Of a DNA stretch of 46,853 nt, positions 8,485 to 34,300 are shown piece by piece. Every line of letters begins with the position of its first letter. Position 1 is the stretch's first letter. The translations under genes were made by a program, and so were the position numbers. The notes below the pieces were generated by a model, which searched no databases, was not told the DNA's origin, and saw nothing but the letters and a program-made list of their open reading frames with translations. The stretch is taken from positions 1-46,853 of IMG/VR virus record IMGVR_UViG_3300032954_000028. The stretch is one strand, 5' to 3'. This DNA comes from a virus.

Positions 8485-8548
8485 CCGGCGTCCGTTCAAG
8501 AACCCCGGCGCCGCGCTGAAGCGGCAGGCACGTACCCCCCGGACGGAG

Positions 8549-8782: not shown

Positions 8783-8802
8783 GGGGGTGATAACAGCCCG
8801 TG

Positions 8803-11689: not shown

Positions 11690-11725
11690 CTGCTCATCGT
11701 AACTATCCCCTGAAGGTGGCGCGTC

Positions 11726-12439: not shown

Positions 12440-12499
12440 TCAGGCAGTCTCCCCGGCCGGTAGCGATACGCAGGCCCGTAAGTTCATTTACCGCAATTA

Positions 12500-12524
12500 C
12501 CCGACTCACGTGTCGGGCGTTTTA
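12500..12524 (+). terminator. intrinsic terminator
   Basis: CCCGAC and GTCGGG with a 6-nt loop are followed by CGTTTTAT. This is a clear Rho-independent terminator ending the first modification cassette before the virion-surface genes. Confidence 0.75.
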
Positions 12525-12549
12525 TCTAACCGGCACGAAAAGGAGTTAT

Positions 12550-13080: not shown

Positions 13081-13084
13081 CCGG

Positions 13085-14563: not shown

Positions 14564-14570
14564 TGGGGTC

Positions 14571-15488: not shown

Positions 15489-15751
15489 GCGGGGGTGCTG
15501 TCGTGCACGGCGCTTCTTTCCCGCGTCCCCGCGCGAACGTCCCCCAGCCGCTGCGGGGCCGGTGCGGGAGCACGAGCGCTCCCGCCTGCCGCCCTGTGCG
15601 CCGCCGGGTGGTGAGGCCGCCTGCGCGGTGCCAGGTGCACGCCAGGCGCCGCCCCGCAGCCCGGGTCCGCGCCTGCGGTCGCGCTACGGCGGGCTGCCGG
15701 CGCGCGACCGGCCGCGAACCTGACCTGGAGGAAGATTTACCACGGCCTTAG
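15485..15751 (+). CDS. small Arg/Pro-rich protein resembling one repeat unit (88 aa)
   Basis: GTG 15485 overlaps the previous TGA. The peptide has ASFPRPRANVPQPLRGRCGS and then PVRRRVVRPPARCQVH, a degenerate version of the F..A..P.RAR.P..PRGR..S.PG.PVRNP unit in the next gene, with added Cys. GC at third codon positions is high, as in real genes here. It may be a decayed or captured repeat fragment. Confidence 0.45.
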   Translation: MSGGAVVHGASFPRPRANVPQPLRGRCGSTSAPACRPVRRRVVRPPARCQVHARRRPAARVRACGRATAGCRRATGREPDLEEDLPRP

Positions 15752-15766
15752 GGCACGGCCGTAATG
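15727..15766 (+). promoter_or_regulatory. ribosome site split from its ATG by a hairpin
   Basis: GGAGGAAG (15727-15734) is 29 nt from ATG 15764, too far to act directly. Between them ACGGCC (15742-15747) and GGCCGT (15757-15762) form a 6-bp hairpin. If folded, the effective spacing becomes about 8 nt. An in-frame TAG at 15750-15752 rules out an upstream start in this frame. Confidence 0.5.
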
Positions 15767-18700
15767 GCCGCCATCACCCATGCCGCGACCGCGACGTGGA
15801 CCACCACGGCCGGGAACAAGACCAACACGGCCACGCCCGCGCTCGGCGACCTGATCGTCGTCGTCGCCCCCGCCACCGGGGTGGCGACCTCTAACGTCAC
15901 CGACAACAACGCCGACGGGCTCGGCACCTACACCAAGATCGGGTCGAGTTTCACCGGGTTCTCCACGGCCGGCGACCTGTCCATCTGGGTCCGCAATGCC
16001 CGGATCGGGTCCGCGACCAGCACCGTCTTCACCGCCACCCAGACCAGTTCGACCGGCGGCGGCCTCGACGTCTTCCGCGTCAGCGGCATGTACCGGACCG
16101 GCGCGGGCGCCGTCCGCAGCAGCGGCGGCCAGTCCAGCGGCACATCAAGCACCACCCCCGCCCCGGTGCTGAGCAACACCCCGCTGACCGGCAACCCGAT
16201 CATCACCGCGGTCTGCAACGGCACCAGCCCCGCCGGGGTCACCGGCCCGTCCACGTACACCGCCCCGACCAACCTGGGCTATGCCACCCCGACCACGGGG
16301 CTGGACACCGCGTTCATCAACTCCGGTATCACGAACGCGACGATCACCTGGGGATCCACCTCCGCCAGCGCGTTCGCCAGCATCGCGATCGAACTGGACG
16401 CGTCCGTCCCCGCCGGGCCCGTGTTCGAGCAGGCGGACACCCCGATCCAGGCGAGGATCCCGCCGAAACCCCGCCTCGCCGGCCCGTGGATGGGCTGGGA
16501 CCCGCAGCCGGGGAACGCGGACACCTCCTTCGCCACCGGGCAGATCCAGTGGAACGCCGGCGGCCCGGTCCAGAACCCGCCCACGTCCGGGCCGCCGCTG
16601 GGCTGGTCATCCCCCGCCGGAGTCCGGGCCGTCTACGTCCGGGCCGGCGTGGCGATGGCCACGCAGATCCCGCTAGCGCCGGCCGTGCCGCCACCTGCCC
16701 CGGCGCCGTTCTACCCGTTCACCCAGGCCGTCCGGGCGAAGTACCTGCCGCACGCCCCCATCGCCGGCACGATCAGCGACGCCCGCAATGTCTCGCTTCC
16801 AGGGCCGGTCAACGGGGCCGGGTTCGGCAACGGCCTCGGCAGTACCGGCGCCCCGGTCCGCAACCCCGCCCAGGGGCCGTCGTTCCGGCCGTTCACCCAG
16901 CCCGCCCAGGCACGCCTGCCCCAGCCTCTCCTGCGGGGCCGGACCACCTCCTCGCCCGGAGGCCCGGTCCGGAACCCGGCCCGCGGACCCGCTGTCTACC
17001 CGGCCCTGGGGCCGGCCGCGGCGAAACGGCCCCTGCTGCCCCGCGCCGCCAAGGGCACCGTCTCGTGGCGTCCCGGCGGGCCGGTCCGCAACCCGCAGCC
17101 CGGCACCGCGTTCACGCCGGCCGTGCAGCCCGTCCGCGCACGCCTGCCGCTCCTGCCGCTGCTCCGCGGCCGTATCGCTTCCAGCCCGGGCATCCCCGTC
17201 CCGGCACCTGCCGGTCCCGCCCTGTTCCGCCAGGCCACGTCACCCGCGCGGGCGCGCATCACGCCGCCACCCCGGGGACGCGTCACCGGCAGCCCCGGGA
17301 GCCCGGTCCGCAACCCGAACGTCGTAGCCGTCTACGGCTCCGTCCCGGGCCCGGTCCGCGCCGCCCTGCCCGTCGTCCAGCGCGGGCGCACCCGTGTCAT
17401 CCCGCAGGGCGTCCCGGTCAGGCCGGCCCCCGCGGGCCCCCAGTTCTTCCCGGCGGACCGGGCGCTCCGGGCACGCCTCCCGCAGCAGCCGCCGCGCGGA
17501 CGTGTCGCGTCGAACCCCGGGAGTCCGGTCCGCAACCCGCAGCCCGGCCCTGCCTTCCGGCAGGCCGCATCGCCTGCGCGTATCAGGCCGTCCCTCCCGC
17601 CGCGCGGGCGGGCCGCCTCGAACCCGGGCGGCCCGGTCGTCAACCCGGTCTTCGGGACCGGTCCCGTGTTCTTCCCGTTCCGGCAGGCCGTCCGGGCAAA
17701 GGCCGCCACCCCGTTCCCGTACGGCCGCGCGGCGGCCATGGTCGCGCTGCCCGCGCCGCCGCATGTCGCGCCGTTCACCCCGCGCCGCGACCCGGCCCGT
17801 ATCCGGCCGCAACTCCCGCCGAGGGGACGCACGGCGGGCAACCCCGGCGGCCCGGTCCGCAACCCGCAGCCGGTCACCGCCGGGCCGCCGTTCCGGCAGG
17901 CCACCTCCCCCGCCCGGATCCGGCCCGCTCTCCCGCCCCGCGGGCGCACGGCCGGGAACCCGGGCGGCCCTCTGCCGCCTCCGCCGCCGCAGCCCGGAGT
18001 CTCATCCGGGCAGCCCGCAGGCATCCGGGTCATCTACCTGTACGCCGGCCGCGCCCGCAGCACCCCGCCCGGGGTGGTCCGGAACCCGTCACCGCCGACC
18101 GCCGGGCCGGTCATCCCGCCGCGCGGCCAGCCGGCCCGCGCGAAGATCCCGCCGCAGCCCCCGTTCGGGCGTGCCGCCACGATGGTGGCACTGCCGGTAC
18201 CGTCGTCACCGTCTCAAGGCCCCGTTTTCCGGCAGGCCGCCCAGCCGGCCCGCATCCGGCCCTCGCTGCCGCCGCGGGGCAGGGCAGCCGGCAATGCGGG
18301 CGGCCCGGTCCGCAACGCGCCGCCGCCCACGCCGGCGCCGTTCACGCCGGCCGTGCAGGCGGTCCGGGCGAAGATCCCGCCGCAGCCCCCGTTCGGCCGA
18401 GCGGCCACGATGGTCGCCCTGCCCGCCCCGTCTGCCCCCTCCCAGGGGCCGGCGTTCCGCCAGGCCACTGCCCCCGCGCAGGCACGCAGGCCGCTGCCCC
18501 CGCGCGGCCGGATCGCGTCCAGCCCCGGCGGGCCGGTCCGCAACCCGCAGCACGGCACCGCGTTCCCGGCGTGGCCCGCCCCGGCCCAGGCGCGGTTCCC
18601 GCTTCCCCCCAAGGGCAGGGTCGCTTCCAGTCCTGGCGGCCCGCTGCGGAACCCGCCCCCGCTCGGGCCTGCCATCGCCCAGCGCGGCCAGCCCGTCCAG

Positions 18701-19090
18701 GCGCGGCGCCCCCTGCCGCCCAGGGGTCGTACCGGGTCGAACCCGGGCATCCCGGTCCCGCCCCCGTCTCCCGGGCCGGTCTTCACCCCGCGCCGCGACC
18801 CCGCCCGTATCCGGCCGTCGCTGCCCCCCAGGGGCCGGGTCGCGTCCAGCCCCGGCGGGCCCGTCCGCAACCCCCGCCCGGGGCCCGTGTTCCGGCAGGC
18901 CGTCCGGCCCATCCGGGCACCCATCCCGCAGAACGCCCCCCGGGGCCGGGCCGCCTCGAACCCGGGCGGCCCGGTCGAGAACATCCCCCAGGCCACCGCC
19001 CTGTACCGGCTCGGCTCACCGTACTTCCAGTGGGAAACAGGAACCCCTGTCTTCGCGTGGGACACAGGCGTCCCCGAAACCAGCGGCTGA
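15764..19090 (+). CDS. giant repeat-containing virion protein (1108 aa)
   Basis: Residues 1 to about 215 form a strand-rich domain (ALGDLIVVVAPATGVATSNV ... SASAFASIAIELDA) paralogous to those of 14571 and 19104. The rest is about 22 units of roughly 36 residues with the pattern GP.F..A..P.RARLP..PRGR..S.PGGPVRNP.P, rich in Pro, Arg and Gly and almost free of acidic residues and Cys. The last 30 residues differ (YRLGSPYFQWETGTPVFAWD). The start is fixed by an in-frame TAG upstream. The repeats may form an extended polyproline-like, strongly basic stalk or bind nucleic acid or anionic polymer; this is inference. Two other long frames over the same DNA are composition artefacts. Confidence 0.75.
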   Translation: MAAITHAATATWTTTAGNKTNTATPALGDLIVVVAPATGVATSNVTDNNADGLGTYTKIGSSFTGFSTAGDLSIWVRNARIGSATSTVFTATQTSSTGGGLDVFRVSGMYRTGAGAVRSSGGQSSGTSSTTPAPVLSNTPLTGNPIITAVCNGTSPAGVTGPSTYTAPTNLGYATPTTGLDTAFINSGITNATITWGSTSASAFASIAIELDASVPAGPVFEQADTPIQARIPPKPRLAGPWMGWDPQPGNADTSFATGQIQWNAGGPVQNPPTSGPPLGWSSPAGVRAVYVRAGVAMATQIPLAPAVPPPAPAPFYPFTQAVRAKYLPHAPIAGTISDARNVSLPGPVNGAGFGNGLGSTGAPVRNPAQGPSFRPFTQPAQARLPQPLLRGRTTSSPGGPVRNPARGPAVYPALGPAAAKRPLLPRAAKGTVSWRPGGPVRNPQPGTAFTPAVQPVRARLPLLPLLRGRIASSPGIPVPAPAGPALFRQATSPARARITPPPRGRVTGSPGSPVRNPNVVAVYGSVPGPVRAALPVVQRGRTRVIPQGVPVRPAPAGPQFFPADRALRARLPQQPPRGRVASNPGSPVRNPQPGPAFRQAASPARIRPSLPPRGRAASNPGGPVVNPVFGTGPVFFPFRQAVRAKAATPFPYGRAAAMVALPAPPHVAPFTPRRDPARIRPQLPPRGRTAGNPGGPVRNPQPVTAGPPFRQATSPARIRPALPPRGRTAGNPGGPLPPPPPQPGVSSGQPAGIRVIYLYAGRARSTPPGVVRNPSPPTAGPVIPPRGQPARAKIPPQPPFGRAATMVALPVPSSPSQGPVFRQAAQPARIRPSLPPRGRAAGNAGGPVRNAPPPTPAPFTPAVQAVRAKIPPQPPFGRAATMVALPAPSAPSQGPAFRQATAPAQARRPLPPRGRIASSPGGPVRNPQHGTAFPAWPAPAQARFPLPPKGRVASSPGGPLRNPPPLGPAIAQRGQPVQARRPLPPRGRTGSNPGIPVPPPSPGPVFTPRRDPARIRPSLPPRGRVASSPGGPVRNPRPGPVFRQAVRPIRAPIPQNAPRGRAASNPGGPVENIPQATALYRLGSPYFQWETGTPVFAWDTGVPETSG
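16411..18992 (+). repeat. about 22 degenerate coding repeats of ~108 nt
   Basis: Coding repeat array of the 15764 gene. Typical units are 36-39 codons. Some are near-identical in protein: PPQPPFGRAATMVALP occurs twice, and PARIRPSLPPRGR three times. Units 1-3 and 14 are longer or irregular. The degeneracy suggests old duplication with later unit exchange. Confidence 0.8.
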
Positions 19091-19103
19091 GGAGACGCCC
19101 CCG

Positions 19104-19904
19104 GTGAGCAACCCGGTCATTACCCAGACCGCCCCGCAGTGGTCCGCCGCCGGCGCCAGCGTCAAATCCCTGGCCATCCAGCCGCTCAACGCCGGGGACC
19201 TGCTCGTCCTCGCGTACATCGCCAACGGCGGCCCGGCCACGGCGGTCTCCGGGGGCGGCGCCGGGACCTGGCAGTGCGCGTCGTCGTACTACGACACGGC
19301 CGGCTCCGCCTACGCCGGCATCTGGTGGGCGGTCGTGACCAATCCTGTAGGCGCGACCGGAGTCGGCACCCCGACCGTCACCGTCACCGTCACCGACGCC
19401 GGACTGGGCACCAATTCCGGGAAGATCTGGGTCCGGGAATTCATGGCCATCGGGGCGAACTGGCTGATGACGGCGGCCAGCCCCATAGCGGGCTCGTCCG
19501 GGTCCGGGCCGCGGGGCACCGGGACGTTCACCCTCGCCTACCCGTCGCTGACCCCGCCAGCGGCCGGGAACGCGCTGTACGCCGGAGCGGCCTGGTCCTA
19601 CTTCGGGAACATCACCCAGGGAAGCGACACGGGGTTCTTCTGGGCGCACCCGGGAGCGGACGGCCCCGAGATGATCGCCTACAACCCCGCGGTCAACACT
19701 GCCGTGGCCCCCACGGTCACCTCTACGAGCAACTTCTCCTACACCACGATCGCGGCGATGTTCACCGCAGGCGGCGGCACCGTCACCACCCCGGTATATG
19801 CCGGGACGGCCACGCCGCTGGGCGGCGGATCCGGCACGTGGGTCAACCCGGCTGACGCAGCCGGCCCCCCGTCCGGGTCGTTCGCCACCTGGACCTCACC
19901 GTGA
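19104..19904 (+). CDS. beta-sandwich virion protein (266 aa)
   Basis: GTG 19104 follows GAGGAGA. The product begins VITQTAPQWSAAGASVKSLA, then NAGDLLVLAYIAN, the same N-terminal fold pattern as the 14571 and 15764 proteins (GDL.V..), with aromatic strands further on (YAGAAWSYFGN, FFWAHPGADGP). The C-terminus is Gly/Thr/Pro-rich. It overlaps the next gene by a GTGA. Likely a fibre or head-decoration component. Confidence 0.7.
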   Translation: MSNPVITQTAPQWSAAGASVKSLAIQPLNAGDLLVLAYIANGGPATAVSGGGAGTWQCASSYYDTAGSAYAGIWWAVVTNPVGATGVGTPTVTVTVTDAGLGTNSGKIWVREFMAIGANWLMTAASPIAGSSGSGPRGTGTFTLAYPSLTPPAAGNALYAGAAWSYFGNITQGSDTGFFWAHPGADGPEMIAYNPAVNTAVAPTVTSTSNFSYTTIAAMFTAGGGTVTTPVYAGTATPLGGGSGTWVNPADAAGPPSGSFATWTSP

Positions 19905-21211
19905 CTTCCGGCCCCCCGGTCTACCCCCAGCCCGGACCGGCAGCCGCCCGGCTGCTTCCCCGCGCAGGCGGGAGAGCCGGGGCAGGAAACCCGGGCGGGC
20001 CGTCCGGCGGCGGCGGATGGCATTCCTCCGCCGGGATCTACTACCCCCAGCAGACCTCCGCCGCATCGGGGAACCTCGGCCCGTTCCCCGACGTCAACGC
20101 CCCCGCCGTCTACGGCACGGTCCTCGTGTCGAACGACGTGTGGAACCCCATCGCCGGCTGGCAGCAGACCACCTACGCGGCCAGCTTCGAGAACTTCATC
20201 ACCATCTCGGACATCCCCGCCGGGAACGGGCCCGTCGTGTCCTACCCGTCCGCCGGGATCAACCCGATGAACGACCCGGTGAACCACGCCCTCCCCCTGT
20301 ACATCAAGAACCTGACCGGCTGGACCTCGACGTTCAACGAGATCCAGCCGCGCACCACCGGGATCGCCTCCGAAGCCGGCTACGACAACTGGTACAACAA
20401 CTACGCCAACGAGGTCATGTTCCAGGTCGACATGGTGGACCCGTCCGCGCTCCGCGGCGGGTTCCCGACGATCGACCAGGCCACGTTCGGCGGCACCGGA
20501 GGCGTCCCCGCCCACCTGTGGAACCTGACCGTCTCCGGCACCGAGATCATCTGGCAGCTCGCCGACAGCGGCGTCATCAACACCCCCACCAGCGTCAACG
20601 GCGGCATCCAGTCCGGCACCGTGGACGTCCGCGCGATGATCAACTGGCTCGCCGACCGCGGGTACCTGAAGTTCGACCTGTTCACCACGACATCGACCGC
20701 GGCAGGGTTCGGGTGGGAGATCTGCTCCACCAACGGGCAGCCGGCGCTGTACCGGATGAACGGGCTGTCCTTCGATTTCGCTTATTCCCCGATGGCGACG
20801 TCGCCCGGCCTGGAACTGTCCGGGTTCGCCACGCCGGCGCTAGGAGCGCAGGACACGGTGAACTCCGTCACCGTGTCCGTGACGGAATACCAGTCGGACC
20901 TGGGCGCGCAGCCGTGCACGATCCAGCTGTGGGACTTCTCCGGCGCCGGGACGCAGGTCGGCCCGACGAAGATCGGCGCCCGGTCCACGTCCAATGCGAA
21001 TGTCTCCCAGGTCACGTTCTACGGCGGCGTCACCCCCGCGACCCTGCCCGCCCTCCGGGTCCGGGTGTACGGCAACGCCGCCACGACGCTGGCCGAGAAC
21101 GTCGGCGGCGTCGCCCTGACCGTCAACTACACCCTGGGCACCGCACCGCAACCGCCCCTCGCGCCCGCGATAGTCAACCGGGTCGCCGCGGTCCCGGCCC
21201 GCATCGGCTGA
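19901..21211 (+). CDS. putative GH12-like beta-jelly-roll protein with repeat-type N-terminus (436 aa)
   Basis: GTG 19901 overlaps the upstream stop. Residues 1-35 are one more Pro/Arg/Gly unit (VYPQPGPAAARLLPR, GNPGGPSGGGG). Then comes a strand-rich domain with YDNWYNNYANEVMFQVDMVD, a pattern like the NEVMIQ segment of GH12 endoglucanases, and LTVSGTEIIWQLAD. The C-terminal 150 residues form another beta domain (NSVTVSVTEYQSDL, LTVNYTLG). GH12 membership is tentative. A polysaccharide-binding or -cleaving virion protein fits the neighbouring apiosidase-like enzyme. Confidence 0.62.
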   Translation: MTSGPPVYPQPGPAAARLLPRAGGRAGAGNPGGPSGGGGWHSSAGIYYPQQTSAASGNLGPFPDVNAPAVYGTVLVSNDVWNPIAGWQQTTYAASFENFITISDIPAGNGPVVSYPSAGINPMNDPVNHALPLYIKNLTGWTSTFNEIQPRTTGIASEAGYDNWYNNYANEVMFQVDMVDPSALRGGFPTIDQATFGGTGGVPAHLWNLTVSGTEIIWQLADSGVINTPTSVNGGIQSGTVDVRAMINWLADRGYLKFDLFTTTSTAAGFGWEICSTNGQPALYRMNGLSFDFAYSPMATSPGLELSGFATPALGAQDTVNSVTVSVTEYQSDLGAQPCTIQLWDFSGAGTQVGPTKIGARSTSNANVSQVTFYGGVTPATLPALRVRVYGNAATTLAENVGGVALTVNYTLGTAPQPPLAPAIVNRVAAVPARIG

Positions 21212-21224
21212 CAAGGAAGCCTGC

Positions 21225-22433
21225 TTGACTACTTACCGGCTGATGGACGGCGCATCGGGCAGGCCCGGCGTCGGCAGTTCCGGCACCCAGCCGCCCGCAT
21301 CGGTCACCGGCACGTCCGGCGGGTGGCTGCTCGGCACCCAGTTCTCCGTCACCGGCCAGATGGGATGGCTGGAAGGCTACTGGCACTGGGTACCCGGCGA
21401 CGGCGACACCACCGCGCGGAAATTCGCGCTGTGGAACGTCTACGCCTCCTCCACGCAGCAGGTCGTCACCGGAAGCGTGGTCACCTCCGGCACGATGACG
21501 GCCGGCGCGTTCAACTACGTCCCCCTGCCCGCCCCGATCCAACTCGCACCCGGCACCCAGTACGTCGCCGCGTGCGGGTGGACCGTCGCCGCCGGCATCC
21601 CCGTCACCAGCAACCAGTTCGACAACGGCAACCCCTACGGGGGCGGGATCGTCAACGGGATCCTGACCGGCTGGTCGGCCGGGACCGGCACGAACGCTTT
21701 CCCCTACACGTACGCGCTCGGCGGGCAGGGGGTATTCTCCAACGCGCTCGGCGCCGACCCGGCCGCAGCGATGCCGAACAACGGGTCAGGGTCGGACAAC
21801 CTGTGGGTCGACGTCTCAGTGTCCGACACCGCCCCCGGCGGCTACTCCGGGTCGTACCGGCTGTTCCCGAATATGGCCGACATGGGGAACTGGACCCTGG
21901 ACACGGCGAACAACTTCACCCTGGGCATGGAGTTCTCCCTGACCTCGGCGTGCACGATCAACAACGTGTGGTTCTACTCCCCGGCTACGGTCACCCAACT
22001 GCCCACGGCGGTCGGCGTCTACCAGGTGTCCGGGACGAGCCTGGTCGCGTCGAACATGTCGCCGTCCTGGTCGGGGACGGCCGGGTCCGGGTGGATGTCC
22101 GCGGCGCTGTCCGGCACCCTGAACGCCTCCACGAGCTACAAGGTCGCCGTGCTGAACGGGGCGGGCACCCCGGCGATCTGGAACTGCGCGCAGGCGAACT
22201 ACTGGTCAACCGGCTTCGGCGCGGCAGGCCTGACCGCCGGGCCGATCACCGCGCCGTCCAACGCGACCGCCGACCCGCCCGGCCAGGAAACCTACAACCT
22301 CGGCGCCACCCTCACCTATCCGAACACGAACGCCGGCCCGTACTCCTACGGCCTGGACATCGAGGTCACCCCGGTTCCCGCCCCGGTGCCGCCGGCCCAG
22401 CAGTTCCTGTACCAGATGCGCCAGTTCCGCTGA
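21225..22433 (+). CDS. virion protein with two DUF4082-like beta domains (402 aa)
   Basis: TTG 21225 follows AAGGA. Two halves repeat the same plan: a strand-rich opening (WLLGTQFSVTGQMGWLEGYW and FTLGMEFSLTSACTINNVWF), a middle (KFALWNVYAS and TAVGVYQVSG) and an ending with AP/..TQYVAACGWT or STSYKVAVLNG. This tandem resembles DUF4082 carbohydrate-associated modules. The C-terminus (PPAQQFLYQMRQFR) is basic. Probable surface adhesin. Confidence 0.7.
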   Translation: MTTYRLMDGASGRPGVGSSGTQPPASVTGTSGGWLLGTQFSVTGQMGWLEGYWHWVPGDGDTTARKFALWNVYASSTQQVVTGSVVTSGTMTAGAFNYVPLPAPIQLAPGTQYVAACGWTVAAGIPVTSNQFDNGNPYGGGIVNGILTGWSAGTGTNAFPYTYALGGQGVFSNALGADPAAAMPNNGSGSDNLWVDVSVSDTAPGGYSGSYRLFPNMADMGNWTLDTANNFTLGMEFSLTSACTINNVWFYSPATVTQLPTAVGVYQVSGTSLVASNMSPSWSGTAGSGWMSAALSGTLNASTSYKVAVLNGAGTPAIWNCAQANYWSTGFGAAGLTAGPITAPSNATADPPGQETYNLGATLTYPNTNAGPYSYGLDIEVTPVPAPVPPAQQFLYQMRQFR

Positions 22434-22450
22434 CCTGAGCCAGGGGGCAT

Positions 22451-22786
22451 GTGGGCTTCGACACGATCGGCATGTCCCGCCTGTCCACCCAGTACGTGTT
22501 CATCCCCGTCCAGGCCACCAAATCCGGCGTGGCATACAACCCGACCGGCGACCCGGTGGTATTCGCCTTCATGCCGCAGGCCACCCAGGTCCCGCAGGTC
22601 TCCGACTGGGTGGCCGGATCATGGGACACGAACACGACCAGCGTCTTGTACCCGTACTCCGCGAAATGCCTAGTCGGCCCGTCCGGGACGACCAACCCCG
22701 GGATCGGGACGTACTACATGTACATCCGGGTGACCGATAACCCGGAAATCCCGGTACTGCTCGGCGGCATCCTCCAGATCACCTAG
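22451..22786 (+). CDS. small head-associated protein upstream of portal (111 aa)
   Basis: GTG 22451 lies 8 nt after GGGGG. The product is strand-rich (TQYVFIPVQATKSGVAYNP, YYMYIRVTDNPEIPVLLGG) and contains a single Cys. It ends 14 nt before the portal gene. Similar small proteins with an RVTDNPE.PV ending occur next to actinophage head genes. Exact role unknown. Confidence 0.65.
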   Translation: MGFDTIGMSRLSTQYVFIPVQATKSGVAYNPTGDPVVFAFMPQATQVPQVSDWVAGSWDTNTTSVLYPYSAKCLVGPSGTTNPGIGTYYMYIRVTDNPEIPVLLGGILQIT

Positions 22787-22800: not shown

Positions 22801-25800
22801 ATGAGCCGCACCTCCGGGGTCCTCGCCGCGATGAAAGCAGTACCCGGCGGCGGCCGGCCCACCCCCGCGCCACAGGCGAGCGGCTGGGGGAGCATCAACC
22901 AGGTCGCCGCCAACGCGATGTGGGGCAACCCGCACGCGGCGGCCAGCGGCTACGGCCCGTTCCTCCCGCGCCCCTCCAGGGTGTTCACCGACGGCGCGTT
23001 CGGGCCGATGGACCCGATCCAGCCCGTCCCGGTCGACGTCCCCCCCCTGGGCGGAGAGTTCCCCGACCCCCGCTGGTGGCAGTACCGTGTCGGCTGGAAC
23101 CTCCCCACCCAGCCCGGCACCGAAGGTCTCAAGCTCGCCTCCTTTGACCAGCTGTACACCCTTGCCAACAAGTACTCCGTCGCCCGCAGGTGCATCGAGC
23201 TCCGCAAAGAGGAGATCCGCGGCCTGGAGTGGTCGATCGACCTGACCACCCAGGCAGCGAAGGCGTACCAGGGCGACCACAAGGCGATGAAGGACTTCGG
23301 GGAACGCGCCGCGCTGGCCACGCGGTTCTTCCGCCACCCGGACCCGGATTTCTTCTCGTTCGGGATGTTCCTCGACGCGCTGCTCGAGGAGATCTTCGTC
23401 TACGACGCCTTGTGCCTGATCTTCCGGCCCAAGTACGGCAAGGGCCTGGGGCTGGGGCTGCTGGGATCTGACCTGGATTCCATGCGCTTGGTTTCAGGGC
23501 CCACAGTCCGCCCGCTGCTGGACATGCACGGCGGCAAGCCCCGGCCGCCCGCGCCCGCCTACCAGCAGTTCCTTTTCGGGGTACCCCGCAGCGACTACCA
23601 GACAGTCATCTCCGGTTCCGACATCGACGACTACGGTCTTACCGGCGCGGAGGTTAACGCGTTCCGGGCCGACACGATGCTGTACGCCCCGCTGGTCACC
23701 CGCCGCGAGACCCCCTACGGGTTCCCGCCGGTCGAGCAGGCGCTCCTCCCGATCATCTCCGGGTTGCAGAAGCAGGAGTACCAGCTCAGCTACTACACCG
23801 AGGGCACCGTCCCGGCGGTGTATATCTCGCCGGGCGACCCGAACATGACTCCGACTCAGGTCCGTGAGCTGCAGGATGCTCTCAACGGCATGGCAGGGGA
23901 CCCCGCCTACCACCTGAAGGTAATCGTCCTCCCACCCGGCTCGAAGGTCGAGCCGCAGCGCCCGGTGGACCTCGCGGACACCTTCGACACGCTCGTGCAA
24001 ACCCAGGTCTGCATGGCGTTCGACGTGACCCCGGAGGAACTGGGGCTGCTCCCCAGCGTCGGCAGTCCCGGGGCGGGCGGCGGGACGAACGCCTCAGCGC
24101 TGCGGTTCGGCGCAGCCGGCCGGGACCCGAAGACCCGCAAGTCCACCAAGCCGCTGCTGCTGTTCCTCACCGACATCTTCAACTACGTCCTGCAGGACAT
24201 CTGCGGCCAGCCGGACATGCAGTTCTCCTTCGAGGGCCTGGTCGATGACGAGGACAAGCAGGCCATCACCGAACTGGGCGTCCAGCAGGTGCAGAACGGC
24301 ATCGCGTCGATCGACGAGGTGCGGGAGCGGCTGGACATGCCCCCGTGGGGCCTCCAGGAGACCTCCGAGCCGGTCGTGTTCACCGCGCAGGGGCCGATCC
24401 CGTTCAGCCTCGCCCCGCAGCTCATCGCGAACATGCAGGCGGGCGGCGCGGGCGGCCAGGGCACGAACGGCGGCCAGCGCACCACGTCATCGCGGTCCCG
24501 GACGAACCAGCCGAGCGTGCGCCGCGGGGGCCAGACGAAGCCCAACGGCAGCCACGAGCCCCCCCTAGCCCCGCACCGGGAGGCCGCAACCCCGGGCCAT
24601 TCCGCCGCGGCGGGCGCGATCCAGTCACCCACGCCCCGCACCGGAGGGACCACCTCCCGCTCGTCCGTGGCCGGGTCCCGTAAGAAGGCCATCGAATCCG
24701 AGCTGGGCGCGCTGAAGCGGCACCTGCGGAAGGGCCGGCTGATCTCCACGTGGATCGCCGAGCACATCCCGGAACGGGCCCTGGGGATGATCGCGGAGGA
24801 TGTCGCGAAGGGTGTCCTGCTGGATGTCGCTGTCGAGCGGGCCGGGGATATCTGCCTCAACGGTGATGCTACATTCGGGGTGACCGGGCCGCCCCTGGGC
24901 GTGTCTGGCGACGAGTCCATGACGGCCGGCCCGGTCAGCCTGCACAAGGCCGCCGGGCACTGGCCCGGCTGGGAACGGGACCTCGGTCTCGTCGGACGGT
25001 ACAAGCAGCAGATCTCCCAGGCGTTCCACGACGCGGAGGCGCGCGGTTCGGACTTGCGGAAGAAAGCCGCCACCGGGGCCATGTTCGTGTCCAACGCGAC
25101 GCTGCGGGACCTGATCTCCGATGAGGTCCGCGACGTCTTCTCCGACGCCCTCACGCCCCTGTGGACGCACGCGTGGAACCTCGGGTACGCCTCAGCCAAG
25201 GCCCTCGTCACGGGACAGCCTGCCGACTTCGCCGCCAAGCATGACGGCGAGGCGCTGGCCGGGTTCATCGGCACCGAGGGCGAGCACTGGCTGTCCCAGA
25301 TCGCCCGCACCGGCCTGGGGAACAACAGCGCCCGGTCTGAGCTCATCGCCCGCACCGAGGTAGCCAGGGCGATCAACAGCGCGGCCATCCAGTGCTACCG
25401 GGACCACGGCGTCACCCACAAGCACCTGCTGCTGTCGCCGGGCGCGTGCGACCTGTGCAAGGACGCGGCCGATGACGGGGTTGTCGCCCTCGATGCGCCT
25501 TTCTCCAGCGGCGGCGTCCTGGGCCTCTCGCATCCGGCGTGCAGGTGCTGCCCAGGGCCGGCTGGGGTCATGACCGAGCCGCCGCTCGCGGACCTTGGCA
25601 AGCACCAGTTCTTCGGCGAGCGGGAAGCCTGCATCGAATGCGGCCTCACCAAGGAAGCCCACGGTGCGGCCGATGACGACTCCCGGCTCGTGTGGCTGCT
25701 GCTCCGCGCCCGCGACGAGGACGGCAAGTGGCGGTTCCTCCTCCAGCAGCGCCCGGACGGCACGTGGGGGATGCCGGGCGGGAAACCGCACGTGGGTGAG

Positions 25801-27303
25801 GACGCGTGGGCCGCGGCGCTGCGGGAAACCGCCGAGGAGATCGGCCAGTTCCCCCCGCCGAGGATCGCCGGGACGTTCCATCACGTCGAGGACGACGGCA
25901 AGACCCAGGTGTACCTGTGGCTGTGCGACGTCCCGTACTTCCACCCGACCCTGGACGGGGCCACCCCCGAGGAAACCAAGGGTGTCGCGTGGCTCCGCCG
26001 CAAGGAAATCGCCGGCCTGAACCTGGCCCCCAAGTTCCGGGAGGACTGGGAGAAAGGCATCTGCCTGCGGGAGCACGTCACCAAGGGCCTCCAGCGGACG
26101 GTGAACGAGAACGGGGAAATCCTCGAACTCACCCCGGCCTCACAGCGCCTCCAGGCGACCGGCGCGCGCTGGCCGTACCCGCACAGGGCCGACGGCGCGG
26201 AATGGCCTGACGCCGGCCCTGGAGCCGTCCCGGACGAGCACGGGAGCGCGGGCGGGGAACCCCCGCACTGGAACGACGACATGGCCGAACCCGAGCCGCG
26301 CGACACGCTCGAGCCCAGGGGCGGCGACGACGGGACGATGCCGCGCGGGCGCAAGCCGAATCCTCCCGCCTCCCGGTTCCCGGACCAGGGCGGCGAGGAC
26401 GACGGCGCGTGGCCGTACCCGCAGACGACGCTCACCCCCGGAGCCTCCACCGTCGGTGCTCCCAAGAGCGGCGGGAACGACTCCGGTCACCCGGTAGTCG
26501 GGTCCGTCCCGGCGAAGACCCCGAAGCCGTACCGGCCGCACGCGGTCGCGCCCGAGGTGTTCGACCCGGCTGAGGCGGTCGAGGACTGGAGCCCGGAAGC
26601 GGACTCCGATGTCGTTCACGACGTCGGCAAGGGCGCAGGCGACTACCGGGACGCCAACCCGGTCGACCCGGAGCACATCCTTTCGATAATGCGGGCTAAC
26701 TTCCCGGAATCTGCCCTTTCCTGGGTGAAGCGGGCTGCATGGACGGGCCCTCAGATGGTCCCGTGGGACCGGATTGACCACGACGACGAGGCGAAATGGG
26801 CTGCCGCGCACCAGCCGGCGAAGGTCCGCGAGTTCGTCCGGGATATCAAGGCGGGCAGGAAGACGAACCCGTCGATCCTGTTCCAGCCTCCGGGTGACGG
26901 CAAGGTCATCGTTTCCGACGGGCATCACCGGGCCGTTGCCCGGCACTCCATGGGGCAGGATGTCCTCGCCTACGTCGGCCACATCCAGGCGCGGGACCGC
27001 GAGGCGGCCGAGCAGACGCACTCGTTCCAGTTCCACAGCGGGAGCGACCCGGCAAACAAGGGCGGCAACGCCGAGACGCTGCGCGAGTACTGGACGCACG
27101 AAGCTCACGGCGGCCCGACAGACTTCGCCTACGCCGACGAAATCGCCTGGGGAACCCCCGGTGACTTCATGCGCGCGGTCAATCTGCTGAAAGAGCACGC
27201 GCACATGACCGACGAGCAGGCCAAGGGCTATGCAAACCTTATGCACCACCGGGCGCTCGGCTACTGGCCCGCTCAGCACGCGGAGATGGAGCGGGGCAAG
27301 TAG
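22801..27303 (+). CDS. portal protein fused to MuF-like, Nudix and ParB-like domains (1500 aa)
   Basis: ATG 22801 follows GGGCGGGGGG. Residues about 90-545 are the portal (YSVARRCIELRKEEIRGLEW, ETPYGFPPVEQAL, AFDVTPEELGLLPS). A Ser/Pro/Gly linker leads to a MuF-type minor head region (about 625-915) with LIARTEVARAINSAAIQCYR and the CDLCKDA (883-889)...HPACRCC cysteines. Residues about 955-1090 form a Nudix hydrolase; the box runs 994-1016 with Gly994, Glu1000 and REtaEEiG (1008-1015). A linker follows, then a ParB/Srx-like domain with MVPWDRID and SDGHHRAVARH (Asp1373-Arg1377). Portal-MuF fusions are known in actinophages; the Nudix and ParB-like additions are unusual. Each capsid would carry about twelve copies. 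Confidence 0.88.
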   Translation: MSRTSGVLAAMKAVPGGGRPTPAPQASGWGSINQVAANAMWGNPHAAASGYGPFLPRPSRVFTDGAFGPMDPIQPVPVDVPPLGGEFPDPRWWQYRVGWNLPTQPGTEGLKLASFDQLYTLANKYSVARRCIELRKEEIRGLEWSIDLTTQAAKAYQGDHKAMKDFGERAALATRFFRHPDPDFFSFGMFLDALLEEIFVYDALCLIFRPKYGKGLGLGLLGSDLDSMRLVSGPTVRPLLDMHGGKPRPPAPAYQQFLFGVPRSDYQTVISGSDIDDYGLTGAEVNAFRADTMLYAPLVTRRETPYGFPPVEQALLPIISGLQKQEYQLSYYTEGTVPAVYISPGDPNMTPTQVRELQDALNGMAGDPAYHLKVIVLPPGSKVEPQRPVDLADTFDTLVQTQVCMAFDVTPEELGLLPSVGSPGAGGGTNASALRFGAAGRDPKTRKSTKPLLLFLTDIFNYVLQDICGQPDMQFSFEGLVDDEDKQAITELGVQQVQNGIASIDEVRERLDMPPWGLQETSEPVVFTAQGPIPFSLAPQLIANMQAGGAGGQGTNGGQRTTSSRSRTNQPSVRRGGQTKPNGSHEPPLAPHREAATPGHSAAAGAIQSPTPRTGGTTSRSSVAGSRKKAIESELGALKRHLRKGRLISTWIAEHIPERALGMIAEDVAKGVLLDVAVERAGDICLNGDATFGVTGPPLGVSGDESMTAGPVSLHKAAGHWPGWERDLGLVGRYKQQISQAFHDAEARGSDLRKKAATGAMFVSNATLRDLISDEVRDVFSDALTPLWTHAWNLGYASAKALVTGQPADFAAKHDGEALAGFIGTEGEHWLSQIARTGLGNNSARSELIARTEVARAINSAAIQCYRDHGVTHKHLLLSPGACDLCKDAADDGVVALDAPFSSGGVLGLSHPACRCCPGPAGVMTEPPLADLGKHQFFGEREACIECGLTKEAHGAADDDSRLVWLLLRARDEDGKWRFLLQQRPDGTWGMPGGKPHVGEDAWAAALRETAEEIGQFPPPRIAGTFHHVEDDGKTQVYLWLCDVPYFHPTLDGATPEETKGVAWLRRKEIAGLNLAPKFREDWEKGICLREHVTKGLQRTVNENGEILELTPASQRLQATGARWPYPHRADGAEWPDAGPGAVPDEHGSAGGEPPHWNDDMAEPEPRDTLEPRGGDDGTMPRGRKPNPPASRFPDQGGEDDGAWPYPQTTLTPGASTVGAPKSGGNDSGHPVVGSVPAKTPKPYRPHAVAPEVFDPAEAVEDWSPEADSDVVHDVGKGAGDYRDANPVDPEHILSIMRANFPESALSWVKRAAWTGPQMVPWDRIDHDDEAKWAAAHQPAKVREFVRDIKAGRKTNPSILFQPPGDGKVIVSDGHHRAVARHSMGQDVLAYVGHIQARDREAAEQTHSFQFHSGSDPANKGGNAETLREYWTHEAHGGPTDFAYADEIAWGTPGDFMRAVNLLKEHAHMTDEQAKGYANLMHHRALGYWPAQHAEMERGK

Positions 27304-28447: not shown

Positions 28448-31309
28448 GTGGCCGCGACTCTCACAGGCGCTGGAGACCTGCTTTACGCGTCGTTCCCCAT
28501 CGACAAGGTGGAAACGGACGCCGACGGCGACCTGATCGTCTACGGCAAGGCGTCCGACGGCTCCATCGACAGCGACCAGCAGGTGGTGGCCCCCTCCTGG
28601 ATGTCCCACGCCGCCCAGGCATGGAAGGAGAGCGGAGCCAACCTCCGCGTCCAGCACAACCCCCAGCGGGACCCCGCCGGGATCGGCCTGGACGTCGAAA
28701 CCGACGCCTCCGGAGCCACCTGGGTCAAGGGACTCGTAGTCGAACCCATCGCGAAGAAGCTGGTAGCGAAGGGCGCGCTCCGTGCCTACTCGGTCGGCAT
28801 CGCCCGGCCCACCATCGAGCGTGACCCGACCGGAAAGGCCCGCGGCGGGATCATCACCGGGGGCGAACTGGTCGAGATCTCGCTCGTTGACCGGCCGGCG
28901 AATAAGGCGTGCGGAATCCAGCTGCTGAAGGCCGCCGATGACGGCACTCCCGAGTACGTCGGCAAGGTCTTCGGCTCGGAAGACGCCATCGCTAAGGCCC
29001 TCGGTGCCGACGTAACCAAGGGCGCCGACGACGGCTTCGTGAACGTGGACCTCCCCAGGGGCGCGTCGATCTCCATCTCGCCAGCGGACTTCGCCAAGTT
29101 GCGCACCCTGAAGCAGGAACTCACGGTCAAGACCGCCGCCGCGACGGAGAAGCGGGACGTGAGCACGGCCGAGCGCCGCGACCTCGCCAGCCACGGGAAC
29201 GCATTGCCCGACGGGTCCTACCCAATTGACAACACCGGGGACCTCCAGAACGCCGCTGTCCTGGCGCGTTCGGGTCACGGTGACGCCGCGGCTGCGCGCC
29301 GCCTTATCGCCCGCAGGGCAAGGGAGCTGGGTGTGGCCAATCCGCTCGACGAGAGCGACGAGGCAAACAAGTCCGCGACCGCCGACGAAGCCGTCCTAGA
29401 TGCGGCCATGCAGGCGGTGTTCCCCGACGCCGCCGTCAAGGAAGCCGAGCCGGAGGTCACCAAGGACCCGGAACCCGACGCCAAGGACAAGCCGGTCAAG
29501 AAGGCCAAGAAGAAGCCGAAGAAGCTCCCCCCGTGGCTGAACAAGCCCAAGGACGACGACGGCGACTCGGATGACGACTCGTCCTGCAAGCAGGACCACG
29601 TGCACACCGAGAAGTGCCACACCACCCCCGCTGAGGCCGCTGGCCTGTCCGGCACCCACGACATGACCTGCGCCCCGGTCCCGGAACTGCTGGAGAGCCC
29701 CCCGGTGGCGTCCATGAAGTCCGCTCCCGACCCGGCGTCCGCGTCCGGCGCCCTGGGCCAGAGCATGGACCCGGCCCCGGTCCCCGAACTCCAGGAAACC
29801 CCGCCGCCCATGTCCGCCAAGGACGCCGCAGAAACCGCCATGATGAAGACCTCTCCCGAGGTCGCGGCGATCCTGCGATTCAAGGCCGCGGGCATGGACG
29901 TCGAGCTCGGCCGGCTCCACGACCTGACCTGCCCCGCCTACCACCCGGAGGACGTGGCGAAGTGCCACCCGTTCGCCGACCTGTCCCAGGTCGACGAGGG
30001 GTACTTCCAGCGGGAAGCGGTCAAGGCAGCGTGCGGCCCGGACATGGACCGGGCTAAGTCCCTGAACCTGGCATGGCAGGCCGCCCGGGTCCTGCGGACC
30101 GCCGACCAGGGGCAGGTGAACGACTTCCGGCTGGAGGCGCACAAGGCGTTCCGCGACGCCAACCCCGGCCCCACCTCGGCGCCGACGCCGGGGCAGATGT
30201 CGCCCGGGAAGTTCAACCGCCCGGTGATCACCGACGGGCACGCTGCCCTGTCCCCGGCGTACGGCAGCCCGAACTCCAGCCCGCAGGTCGCCACCAGCGC
30301 GCCGAACGCGCACTCCTTCGACCGTCCGCCGCTCGCCTCCGGCCACCAGTCGCCGTCCCCGTCGCACATGAAGGGCGGACTCGGCGAGTACCCCGCACAG
30401 CAGGGCGTCCCCACCCAGCTCAACTACGCGGTCATGGAGAAGGAACGCGCCCGGCACGCCCTCATGGCGATGCACGAGCACCTGTCCCGCCAATTCCCCG
30501 AGGCCTGCCCGATGTCCCTCGACGCGCCGCCCGTGCAGCCCGAACGGCACCCCGTCCCCGCCGCAGTCGGCAAGAGCATCACCCCGGAACCGGCCGCGGC
30601 GGCACCGGCTCCCGTCGCCGCAACCTTCAAGGCCGAACCCGCCGGCGAGGAAATGTTCGCCGACGCCGACATCTACAAGAGCTTCAAGAAAATGCGCAAG
30701 AAGCTCGGCAAGAAGGTCCTCGCCGGGAAGATGACCGTGGACGAGGCTAGGGCGAAGATGGGCCGCCAGTTCGCCCAGAAGGCCGCCGAACCCGAGACGC
30801 AGGACGTGCAGAAGTCGGCCGCGCCGGACCTCTCGTGGTCCGAGGGTGTCACGCACCAGGGTCCCCCCATCGCGGATCTGGTCAAGTCCGCGGTCAGGGA
30901 AGCCCTCCACGTGGAATCCGTCCCGCTGGAGCCCGCCACGGTCGCGTCCTTCGACCCGTCGCCTGCCATCGAGGCCGCCGTCACCAAGGCCGTCGCCCCC
31001 CTCCTGGAGAAGATCCGGGAGCAGGACGAGACCTACACCGCCAAGCTCGCTGAACAGCAGAAGGTGATCGACGCCATCGCTGACCAGCCAGACCCGTCCA
31101 CGGCCGCATTCTCCGGCCTGGCGTTCAACCCGGTACGAACCAAGGCGGCACGCCCGGCGGGCGTCACCGCACAAGCTGAGATCGCGGAGCGAACCCAGAA
31201 CATGGTCATCCGGAACCTGCAAGAGCTCTACAACTCCAGCTCGGACCCCTATGAGCGGGAGGGCTACTACAAGACCCTCAGCAAGATGAGGGGGTTCACC
31301 GAGCCCTAA
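28448..31309 (+). CDS. prohead protease fused to scaffold-like C-terminus (953 aa)
   Basis: I choose GTG 28448 because CGGAG precedes it and the protein then opens at the protease fold; an in-frame start at 28343 would read through a hairpin. The HK97/S78-type protease spans about residues 1-150: GDLIVYGKASDGSIDSDQQV, RVQHNP (His70), ALRAYSVGIA (Ser115) and GELVEISLVDRPANK. The remaining 800 residues are Lys/Glu/Ala/Pro-rich with helices (YKSFKKMRKKLGKK, VTKAVAPLLEKIREQDET), as expected for a scaffold that directs capsid assembly. One stretch carries HVHTEKCHTT. Located directly before the capsid gene. Confidence 0.85.
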   Translation: MAATLTGAGDLLYASFPIDKVETDADGDLIVYGKASDGSIDSDQQVVAPSWMSHAAQAWKESGANLRVQHNPQRDPAGIGLDVETDASGATWVKGLVVEPIAKKLVAKGALRAYSVGIARPTIERDPTGKARGGIITGGELVEISLVDRPANKACGIQLLKAADDGTPEYVGKVFGSEDAIAKALGADVTKGADDGFVNVDLPRGASISISPADFAKLRTLKQELTVKTAAATEKRDVSTAERRDLASHGNALPDGSYPIDNTGDLQNAAVLARSGHGDAAAARRLIARRARELGVANPLDESDEANKSATADEAVLDAAMQAVFPDAAVKEAEPEVTKDPEPDAKDKPVKKAKKKPKKLPPWLNKPKDDDGDSDDDSSCKQDHVHTEKCHTTPAEAAGLSGTHDMTCAPVPELLESPPVASMKSAPDPASASGALGQSMDPAPVPELQETPPPMSAKDAAETAMMKTSPEVAAILRFKAAGMDVELGRLHDLTCPAYHPEDVAKCHPFADLSQVDEGYFQREAVKAACGPDMDRAKSLNLAWQAARVLRTADQGQVNDFRLEAHKAFRDANPGPTSAPTPGQMSPGKFNRPVITDGHAALSPAYGSPNSSPQVATSAPNAHSFDRPPLASGHQSPSPSHMKGGLGEYPAQQGVPTQLNYAVMEKERARHALMAMHEHLSRQFPEACPMSLDAPPVQPERHPVPAAVGKSITPEPAAAAPAPVAATFKAEPAGEEMFADADIYKSFKKMRKKLGKKVLAGKMTVDEARAKMGRQFAQKAAEPETQDVQKSAAPDLSWSEGVTHQGPPIADLVKSAVREALHVESVPLEPATVASFDPSPAIEAAVTKAVAPLLEKIREQDETYTAKLAEQQKVIDAIADQPDPSTAAFSGLAFNPVRTKAARPAGVTAQAEIAERTQNMVIRNLQELYNSSSDPYEREGYYKTLSKMRGFTEP

Positions 31310-31329: not shown

Positions 31330-34300
31330 GTGGCAGTAACACTCGACAACGACGAGGCGCTACCAGCCCCTCAGATGGGCGCCGCCCAGGGTGGCGCCGC
31401 TAACGCCCTCGCAGCCCGCGAAGCCCGCCGCAACACCCGCTACGCCGACATGTTCACCGGCAAGGCCAAGGGCCTCGTCAAGGGCGTCGGCCACGTCATC
31501 AACAACGGCGTCCCCCTCTCCGAAGCCACCCACGGCGCGGAGATCATGACCCGCCAGCACGACACCATCACCAAGACCCGCGCCGCCACCATCGACGGCG
31601 CATGGAACACCGACGACGTAACCGCCGGGATCTCCAACGAGTTCTGGGGCCACCCCCGCGCCGGAGCCATGAAGTTCATGGCCCAGCGCGACAGCATGGT
31701 CCGCAAGAACTTCACCGCCACGAACCTGGGCGGGTCCGGCGCTCCATACGGCCTCGTGCCGTTCGATTTGCTAGCGCCTTAGAACGCTAGGGCCTGCATG
31801 TTGCGAAACATGCAGCAAACCCCGCTGTTCGGCGAAACTCCTTCGCACTATCCAGGGATCTGATTTATCTGGTATAGTGGTCATGTGGAAAACGCCGATG
31901 TCGTCCGGTACGTAGCCGGCCGGCGGTAGAGACTGAACGCGGGGTATCTGGTGGACTGGAGCAACCTCAAGGCGGACTACGAGCGCCTTGGCTCATACTC
32001 AGCCGTCGCCGCCGAATACGGCGTAACGAAGGCAGCCGTCGCACATCAGGCGAAGAAGCAGGGGATCAATCCCAAGCCAGAAGGCCGATCACTCAAGATC
32101 GACTGGAGCGACCTGCCGGACCTGTACGCCAGCGGCATGACCTACGAACAACTGGCAGCGCACTACGGATGCAGCATCCACGCCATCCAGAACGCGATAA
32201 AGCGACTGGACGTGAAGCCGCGGCCGACGGGCCTGCCGGAGGGTTACGAGTGGACGGACGAACGCCGGGCGGCTCACCGCGCGGCCATTGACCGTCCCGA
32301 GTGGCGAGCCAAGATGCGCGAGAACTTGCTGCAGCGCCTCCCTGAAATGCGGGGGCCGTCAGCAAACTCGCCCCTTGAGAAACTGCTTCAGGCAGCACTC
32401 ATAAAGACCGGCATCAGCTTCTCGACGCAACGCGTCCTGCTGGGCCGGTACTGCGTAGACATCCTCATCGACCAAGCCCCGGTCATCATCGAGGCGGACG
32501 GCGCGTTCCACAACCTGCGCAAGAAGCAGGACGCGGAGCGGGACGTCGCGCTCACCGAGGCCGGGTACCGGGTCTTCCGGTTCACGGGCGCACCGATCAA
32601 CCGCGATGCCATGGGCTGCATTGCCGAGGTGGTCGCGGCGGTCGGGCTTACGCCCGACGCCAACCCGGTGGCCGACATCCGCACCGGGATGATGGGACCG
32701 GAGAACCCGAACTGGAACGGCGGCAAGCGCACCGTCACCTGCGCCCACTGCGGCGCAGAGAGCAAGCGTAACGCCTTCCAGACCCAGTGGAAGAGGACGT
32801 TCTGCAACCAGAAGTGCTACGGGGCGTGGTTGCGCGCCCATCCCGAGGAGAGCAGCCGCAGGAAGTGGGCGGACGCCCGTCGCGCGGCTCTCCAGGAAAG
32901 CCAGATAGTGTCACAGTCCGAGCCTGCGTGAGAACGTAGGAGCTACCCGGAAACGAGGTAGCCCGGCTGACGGGGCCGGTAACAAATCTGTCGCGCTTGA
33001 TCTACCCCGTCTACACCCTTTTCCGCAACAAGTTCCCCCGCCCGGCGGGCCAGGGCGCTTCGCGGCAGGTGTACGGCCTCCTGGGCATCTCCGGCTCCCA
33101 GACCGGCGGACAGGGTGTCATCGACATCTCCATCCCGGAACTCGTCTCGTCCGGCCAGACTGGAATCTCCAGCACCTGGCCGCTGAACATCCCCGGCTCG
33201 GGCAAGCAAACCGAGTACAAGCTCAACGTGCCTTCCATGAACTAGGTAGGGCACGCTAAACCGCGAGAATTGCTGGAAAGCCCGCGCCACCCGCACTCAC
33301 CACAGCGTGGCCCGAAAGGGCGAGCGCGACGGTTCGAGAAGAGTGCGGCAGGGGTAATCAGCAGCCGAGGGCCTAAAGGCGACACGCCCAGGGTCAAGGT
33401 TCAGAGACTCGGCACGCGGGATCTGGTGGTAGTAGAATCTTAATGTGGCGAGGATTAAAGGTCAGAAACCTCTGACCACCGCTGAGAAGCAGGAAATCGC
33501 ACAACAGTACGAAGCCGGCGAAGTGCTGGAAGCGCTCATGGCCGAGTATCAGCGCGGCAAGCCGACGATCAAGCAGGTCATCGTGGACGCGGGCGGCACG
33601 ATCCGCCGCCGCGGGTACGCGACCGGCACCGAGTGGTCCCCGGAACGACGGGCGGCCCACAAGGCAGGCTGCAGCACCCCGGAGTTCGCGCAGAAGTCAC
33701 GCGAGGCGCTCTTGAAGCGCCTGCCGACCATGCGCGGGCCAGCGACCAACACGGCCATCGAACAGCGCATGCACGACGCGCTCAAGGCGGCCGGGATCGG
33801 CTTCACCACGCAATCCATCCTGCTAGAGCGTTACCTGGTGGACATCGAGCTTCATCAGGCTCCCATCGTCATAGAGGCAGACGGAGCGCAGCATACGCTG
33901 CGCCTCCAGAAAGCCAAGGACGCACTGCGCGACGCCGAACTCACCACTGCCGGCTACCGGGTCTTCCGGTTCACCGGCAGCGAGATCAACACCGACGCCG
34001 TTGCCTGCGTCCAGCGCGTGATCGACACCTGCGGGCTGGTGCCCGATCAGGATCCGGTCTATGAGATCCGCACCCGGTTCTCAGGCGAACTCCACCCGCT
34101 CTGGAAGGGCGGCAAACAGGAGTACACCTGCGAAAACCCGTCGTGCGGGAAGACGTTCCTTGCTCAGCCGAAGCACCGGACAGGCAAGCACGTCTACTGC
34201 AGCAAGAAGTGCTACGGCAAGGGCAAGGCCGGGGTCAAGCTCGGCCCGATGCCTGCCGAGCAGCGCGCAAAGATCGGCGCCGCCAACCGGCGCAACCACC

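Follow-up and report, generated by a model that had tools for sequence, protein, structure and literature searches.

The window analysed here, a stretch of 46,853 nucleotides at 69% GC from a soil phage, is the entire virus record G000. At its centre of interest is a frame that begins with ATG and stays open through all of its 1500 codons (Table 1), and that was recovered again, with zero internal stops, both in its own record and in a near-identical contig; a near-identity DNA search among phage records found no match to the window. The earlier note had read this frame as a single uninterrupted fusion of a portal, a MuF region with its Cys motif, a near-canonical Nudix box and a ParB/Srx-like DGHHR domain. 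All of these are present, and the list must be extended by two elements that had been overlooked, a C-terminal phrog_6439 domain and a short zinc-ribbon-like stretch containing CIECG. A frameshift, or separate genes mistaken for one, is ruled out for this phage by the open frame and by its repetition in the near-identical contig.

The portal part is recognized by PF04860 (Pfam; residues 278-512, E 7.5e-12), by the portal-MuF family phrog_2662, which spans residues 91-916 (PHROGs; E 3.9e-48), and by the portal model TIGR01537 under its cut-off. Phage_Mu_F (PF04233) matches residues 824-916 below threshold (E 0.031), and the MuF Cys/His motif, CxxC...HPxCRC, is there in the window; alignment shows it mostly kept in relatives and altered in some. 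The zinc-ribbon-like stretch precedes the Nudix domain, and among aligned close relatives only the near-identical L001 has the same one. At the C-terminus the phrog_6439 match covers residues 1415-1498 of the window protein (PHROGs).

Table 1. Features of the fusion gene and of the neighbouring protease gene, in window coordinates; the hyphen within a junction marks the predicted cut.
Feature	Position	Strand	Basis
Portal-MuF-Nudix-ParB/Srx-phrog_6439 fusion, 1500 aa	22801..27303	+	ORF call, Pfam, PHROGs
HK97-type portal domain, residues about 89-520	23065..24360	+	PF04860, phrog_2662, TIGR01537 under cut-off
MuF region, residues about 715-930, CxxC and HPxCRC motif	24943..25590	+	Sub-threshold PF04233, MuF/minor-head PHROGs, alignment
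Lys716, predicted junction LHK-AAG ahead of MuF	24946..24948	+	Prediction
Lys934, predicted junction LGK-HQF past MuF	25600..25602	+	Invariant in 12/12 close relatives; prediction
Zinc-ribbon-like short stretch FFGEREACIECGLTKEAH, MuF/Nudix interval	25606..25659	+	Sequence, alignment, prediction
Nudix hydrolase domain, residues 958-1095	25672..26085	+	PF00293, fold, conservation
Nudix box, residues 994-1016	25780..25848	+	Sequence
Lys1095, predicted junction VTK-GLQ past Nudix	26083..26085	+	Invariant in 10/10; prediction
Pro/Gly/Asp-rich linker, residues 1096-1282	26086..26646	+	Sequence, alignment
Lys1277, predicted junction VGK-GAG ahead of ParB	26629..26631	+	Invariant in 8/8; prediction
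ParB/Srx-fold domain, residues 1283-1418	26647..27054	+	Sequence matches, model, fold search
DGHHR motif, residues 1373-1377	26917..26931	+	Alignment of 73 domains
Lys1420, predicted junction ANK-GGN ahead of phrog_6439	27058..27060	+	Prediction
C-terminal phrog_6439 domain, residues 1421-1500, exchangeable	27061..27300	+	phrog_6439, E 3.8e-15
Head maturation protease, N-terminal S78-like part and long scaffold-like extension, candidate processing enzyme	28448..31309	+	PF04586

The PF04586 match of the protease in the window is weak and sub-threshold (E 0.0064). A relative is annotated 'head maturation protease', and the relative L002 matches phrog_9427; the identities of the protease and of the capsid protein are taken from the annotated relatives in Alicyclobacillus phage MMB025 and from phrog_9427 in L002. 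The capsid protein gene (window region 31375-35969) is apparently in three pieces, at about 31375-31782, 32997-33245 and 34833-35969. The gaps hold two DUF559/HTH endonuclease ORFs (31951-32931 and 33445-34377), and Rfam matches group I introns at 34479-34751 (E 5.9e-8, under the gathering score) and 33267-33413 (E 0.04). On the other side, about 15 kb separate the portal from the terminase gene upstream (5916-7700); the interval (window region 5916-22786) holds glycosyltransferase, apiosidase-like and long Pro-rich repeat ORFs (15764-19090).

Pfam places NUDIX (PF00293) at residues 967-1074 (E 3e-13). The Nudix box reads GKPHVGEDAWAAALRETAEEIGQ and stands exactly where the earlier note had put it; set against the consensus Gx5Ex7REUxEExGU it has the catalytic glutamates, while T and Q occupy two of the aliphatic U positions, so that 'near-canonical' is a fair description. 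Structure prediction, suggested at the time as a check, gave a confident AlphaFold model (mean pLDDT 91.8) which matched Nudix folds in the PDB; the closest structures are a mixed group (RenU, RppH, NrtR with ADP-ribose, MutT, Ap4A hydrolase), and MutT/PRK08999-type models are matched weakly. Judged by sequence and model, the domain is a member of the Nudix hydrolase superfamily. Nor is it a dead one: active-site residues not conserved in homologues had been named as a possible refutation, and the full core box is kept in 52 of the 52 distinct domains of the window's subfamily in related phages, collected by a scan whose patterns did not include the box, with purifying selection besides. Comparison of the window with L002, L003, L005, L006 and L013 gave dN of 0.055-0.085 for the Nudix against 0.08-0.17 for the portal, and in most comparisons with the closest relatives the Nudix had the lowest dN among the tested regions, in all of which median dN/dS was well under 1. 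Proteins of this kind also harbour a second Nudix subfamily. It keeps the whole box in 17 domains and resembles the window's Nudix only around the box; its carriers include Arthrobacter phages Mufasa8 and Sonali, with the Nudix between portal and MuF. The recurrence of two unlike Nudix types with an intact box argues for selection on Nudix activity.

The box is followed at +16 by Pro in ADP-ribose pyrophosphatases and at about +18 by Tyr in ApnA hydrolases. By these general criteria both marks are absent from the window's subfamily, where +16 is mostly Asp and +18 mostly Lys, and the class of substrate is consequently a guess from context. ADP-ribose or NAD-derived signals are, by analogy, most likely the leading class, a reading that comes from the company of ADP-ribosyltransferase, 2H and Nudix in related proteins and from the literature, not from the Nudix sequence.

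The ParB-like domain matches phrog_1033 weakly within the whole protein (E 0.0064) and at E 1.7e-4 when isolated (PHROGs); Pfam at E 0.1 finds no match for the window domain, with the ddrB-ParB and ParBc models likewise unmatched. Its AlphaFold model is confident (mean pLDDT 91.6), and nearly all of its top Foldseek matches in the PDB belong to the ParB/Srx superfamily (PadC, sulfiredoxin, SbnI, SerK, ParB), each at E about 1e-3 or weaker. Among its relatives 67 of 73 match phrog_1033 and 17 of 73 match ParBc_2 weakly (Pfam). DGHHR, including its Arg, is invariant in the 73 aligned domains, an invariance that is partly ascertainment, since one of the two patterns used in the search was DGHHR itself. 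Fold and conserved active-site arginine together indicate, on sequence and model, that the domain is a member of the ParB/Srx superfamily, in agreement with the earlier note. It is called here a DGHHR-type ParB/Srx domain of NTP-binding type, a label that draws on its fold and sequence matches and on a 2025 survey according to which CTP, ATP or GTP can be ligands of the ParB fold, which frequently occurs in fusion with other domains (PMC12704722; its main text contains none of the words portal, MuF and nudix). Its median dN/dS, 0.41, is above that of the other regions.

Two more specific roles for this domain were rejected. Its best PDB sequence match is free serine kinase (E 0.0018), and SerK and SbnI (PDB 5x0e, 5ujd) share with it the ParB/Srx fold and the DGHHR motif; the match is however confined to the ParB/Srx core, and the catalytic Glu30 of SerK (mutated as E30A in 5x0e) aligns, where the HMMER alignment has no gaps, with an Ala invariant in the 73 domains, so that a kinase role is not supported. 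A canonical ParB partition protein is set aside because the fusion protein contains neither a helix-turn-helix nor a C-terminal dimerisation Pfam domain. The ParB profile gave one weak match in the genome_contigs collection, on an archaeal contig, and pointed to no host.

A scan of viral contigs yielded 25 relatives of the fusion, and further scans, directed at the ParB-like and the Nudix domain, added many more; the architectures of all relative ORFs were assigned with home-made profiles. The commonest is portal-MuF-Nudix-ParB, with 26 distinct ORFs plus forms carrying extra modules, and others include portal-ParB-MuF (L056), portal-2H-ParB-MuF (L087), MuF-ParB-Nudix (L064), portal-MuF-2H-Nudix (L013) and a separate protein, ParB-phrog_6439-2H-ADP-ribosyltransferase (L015); effector modules thus sometimes lie in the portal/MuF interval. 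The presence of ADP-ribosyltransferase, 2H and PI3K-like domains in relatives of this sort is confirmed by Pfam, which bears out the earlier suggestion that MuF fusions carry effectors, ADP-ribosyltransferases among them. Among 76 distinct versions of the ParB-like domain, 62 share an ORF with portal/MuF and 9 more occupy an ORF of their own at the same locus: the one-frame fusion holds for the window phage but not for these nine, which suggests that the modules act as independent cargo. The window's ParB domain is 89% identical to that of L002, as against about 52-56% for the domains of L006 and L003, the rest of the fusion protein being about equally diverged from all three; the phrog_6439 domain is common to the window and L006, replaced in L002 and L003, and absent in L004, L007, L011 and L012. 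This mismatch in ParB identity, with the distribution of phrog_6439, indicates that modules are exchanged independently.

Other features were seen in these genomes. In L018-L025, which are distant relatives, the second ORFs encode MuF proteins of great length that hold from one to three ADP-ribosyltransferase domains, together with zinc-peptidase-like HEFGH motifs, Rho_N and kinase-like domains. Intein-like insertions lie within the portal of L012 (about residues 336-693) and L013 (about 325-670); both end in ...AWCGN, that of L012 has a weak LAGLIDADG match and that of L013 matches intein-containing proteins, and similar gaps occur in L060, L083, L085 and L122, at differing portal positions. 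The 1487-aa ORF of L004 has a Cys-rich module, RDCGNCVMFHADSETCDLVSGHIRPRDVCDRWEP, in the linker ahead of ParB, which looks like a small domain that binds metal or an iron-sulfur cluster; strings of this kind also stand ahead of modules in L064 and L076. Between ParB and Nudix in L014 (about 3690-3770), KNFTAANLGDGSVHGLAPYDL resembles the region of the predicted maturation site of the window's capsid protein, KNFTATNLGGSGAPYGLVPFDL, so that the cargo appears to contain a site of capsid type.

Ahead of the modules, whatever their type, there tends to be a Lys followed by a small residue. Scored as K[SAGN] in 25-residue segments (20 before the module start and 5 within, similar segments having been removed first), the motif was present at 36/56 starts of MuF, 7/7 of 2H, 14/23 of Nudix, 26/31 of ParB, 6/8 of phrog_6439 and 4/4 of cterm2, against 29% of control linker segments, an enrichment of only about two- to threefold, for a motif defined after inspection of the junctions and in segments that are phylogenetically related. 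It is not universal, being missing from 9/23 Nudix junctions; the window's own Nudix junction is LGK-HQF, where close relatives have LGK-SA or LGK-A. Lys is commonly found beside small residues in flexible linkers generally. Conservation of linker lysines as a whole is not raised (mean 0.75, against 0.73 for other residues): the border lysines alone stand out. The same K motif is found where the protease domain ends, as in LVKSADDG, and where the mature capsid protein is predicted to begin, (R/N)K-SFTAGNLG. Of the 20 capsid proteins in which this site could be placed, 19 have Lys there and L076 has Arg; the HK97 capsid protein is cleaved at K103/S104 (PMC10275583). From this sharing of a Lys motif by modules, protease border and capsid site we predict release of the modules by the head protease, and infer that the fusion is a polyprotein cut by that enzyme.

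The lysine junctions could instead be mere recombination joints, or generic linker that undergoes no processing, which would be compatible with any delivery route. The modules are clearly exchanged, as the ParB identities to L002, L006 and L003 illustrate; yet the motif recurs at the protease domain border and in the capsid protein, and the residues that follow the lysine differ between modules, and we consider this explanation unlikely, though it has to be kept in mind.

According to sequence and model, then, the portal and MuF of the window carry an intact Nudix, an intact ParB/Srx-fold domain and an exchangeable C-terminal domain. We lean towards the view that this is a modular virion protein of the polyvalent type, which would be packed, cut by the head protease and injected to act on host nucleotide. 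The portal ring, the DNA's way into and out of the head, would carry about twelve copies into the procapsid, their cargo facing inwards. The gene next downstream encodes the putative HK97-type maturation protease, which would cut after the conserved border lysines during capsid maturation; the freed enzymes would remain inside the head and reach the host together with the DNA. In the host cell the Nudix would break a nucleotide-diphosphate-X compound, used by the host against the phage or needed by the host itself, and the ParB/Srx domain would bind or hydrolyse an NTP. The frequent swapping and addition of modules (2H, ADP-ribosyltransferase, the second Nudix type) is in keeping with an arms race against nucleotide-based immunity of the host, and the available text of PMC12373910 presents injected head proteins with anti-defence roles as experimentally established in T4. 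More tentatively, and at rather less than even chances, the portal gene may, in this phage group, encode a polyprotein diced at its Lys-small-residue junctions by the HK97-type head protease in the procapsid, which would yield a portal and separate enzymes (Nudix, DGHHR-type ParB/Srx, 2H, ADP-ribosyltransferase), the latter being co-injected as a ready-made counter-immunity kit with modules shuffled among phages.

Effectors that are never cleaved, the entire fusion remaining in the virion and the Nudix and ParB domains acting on the inner portal face or in the injection pore during DNA entry, would suit the single unbroken frame of most relatives, and the long flexible linkers would permit such tethered action; this is nevertheless improbable, given the conservation of junction lysines that match the capsid and protease borders, and the nine ParB modules in their own ORF beside portal/MuF, for which tethering is not required. 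More doubtful still is a function within the producing cell, in which Nudix and ParB/Srx would regulate packaging or head maturation, for example by sensing NTP near the packaging motor or removing inhibitory nucleotides, or would clean damaged nucleotides: fusion to the portal, beside the DNA entry channel, speaks for it, as do the MutT, RppH and Ap4A hydrolases that are among the closest Nudix folds as well as the ADP-ribose-binding NrtR domain, but the modules, unlike core assembly functions, are exchanged, change their order and give way to 2H, ADP-ribosyltransferase and others despite related portals. Least probable is a cargo that is mainly a toxin load against competitors or host, in the sense of the established MuF toxins with exchangeable C-termini (PMC5576092), rather than counter-defence: relatives do have ADP-ribosyltransferase exoenzyme domains, but Nudix and 2H are nucleotide-processing enzymes and not typical toxins, the one weak ParB-family match in genome_contigs makes no prophage-linked immunity system evident, and no immunity gene was identified in the general domain searches.

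The idea that underlies the preferred reading, a virion protein whose enzymes are packed and injected, is in its basic form already published, and its novelty is smaller than the earlier note supposed (PMC9503650 and PMC5512222, in their available parts). NudE-like Nudix domains fused to MuF, portal and head protease, which may be injected, are described by Iyer (2022; PMC9503650, section 3.5.2), as are 2H domains fused to MuF or portal. The window has the same basic fusion, with the same proposed packaging and injection; those fusions are NudE-like whereas the window's Nudix is weakly MutT/PRK08999-type, and the ParB pairing, the variants of module order and the junction motif are not mentioned in the available sections of that paper. 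The polyvalent proteins with ParB/Srx, 2H and MuF/portal fusions (Iyer 2017, PMC5512222) are alike, as far as the available text goes, in being multi-enzyme polypeptides next to head genes, with MuF/portal fusions to 2H and PBECR and with ParB/Srx hubs, and the window protein too has at least two effector-type domains in one polypeptide in a head-gene context; it differs from them in pairing the DGHHR ParB/Srx domain with Nudix directly in the portal, and in having a head-protease-like junction motif where they have a metallopeptidase autoprocessing domain, none of which was detected in it. MuF polymorphic toxins (Jamet 2017, PMC5576092) likewise use MuF as carrier of exchangeable C-terminal enzymes; in the window, portal and MuF are one protein and no toxin-immunity pair was identified in the general domain searches, and the words 'nudix' and 'ParB' do not occur in the main text of that paper. 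Among isolates, gp3 of Arthrobacter phages Mufasa8 and Sonali (NC_049478, MK411746) unites portal, Nudix and MuF in one gene, annotated as MutT/NUDIX hydrolase in the former (RefSeq) and as 'portal and MuF-like fusion protein' in the latter; their Nudix, between portal and MuF, is of the other subfamily, and no ParB-like domain was found in them. A Nudix and DGHHR-ParB pairing in the portal, effectors in the portal/MuF interval and a shared lysine junction were not found in the available portions of PMC9503650, PMC5512222 and PMC5576092, and within that compass the pairing and the Lys-[Ser/Ala/Gly/Asn] junction before modules look new.

If the junctions are cut, the fusion would provide several injected enzymes in fixed stoichiometry, carried by the portal and cut loose by the capsid protease. 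The exchangeable modules make up a catalogue of candidate counter-defence enzymes, one that includes a DGHHR ParB/Srx family for which Pfam gives only weak matches in some members and none in the window.
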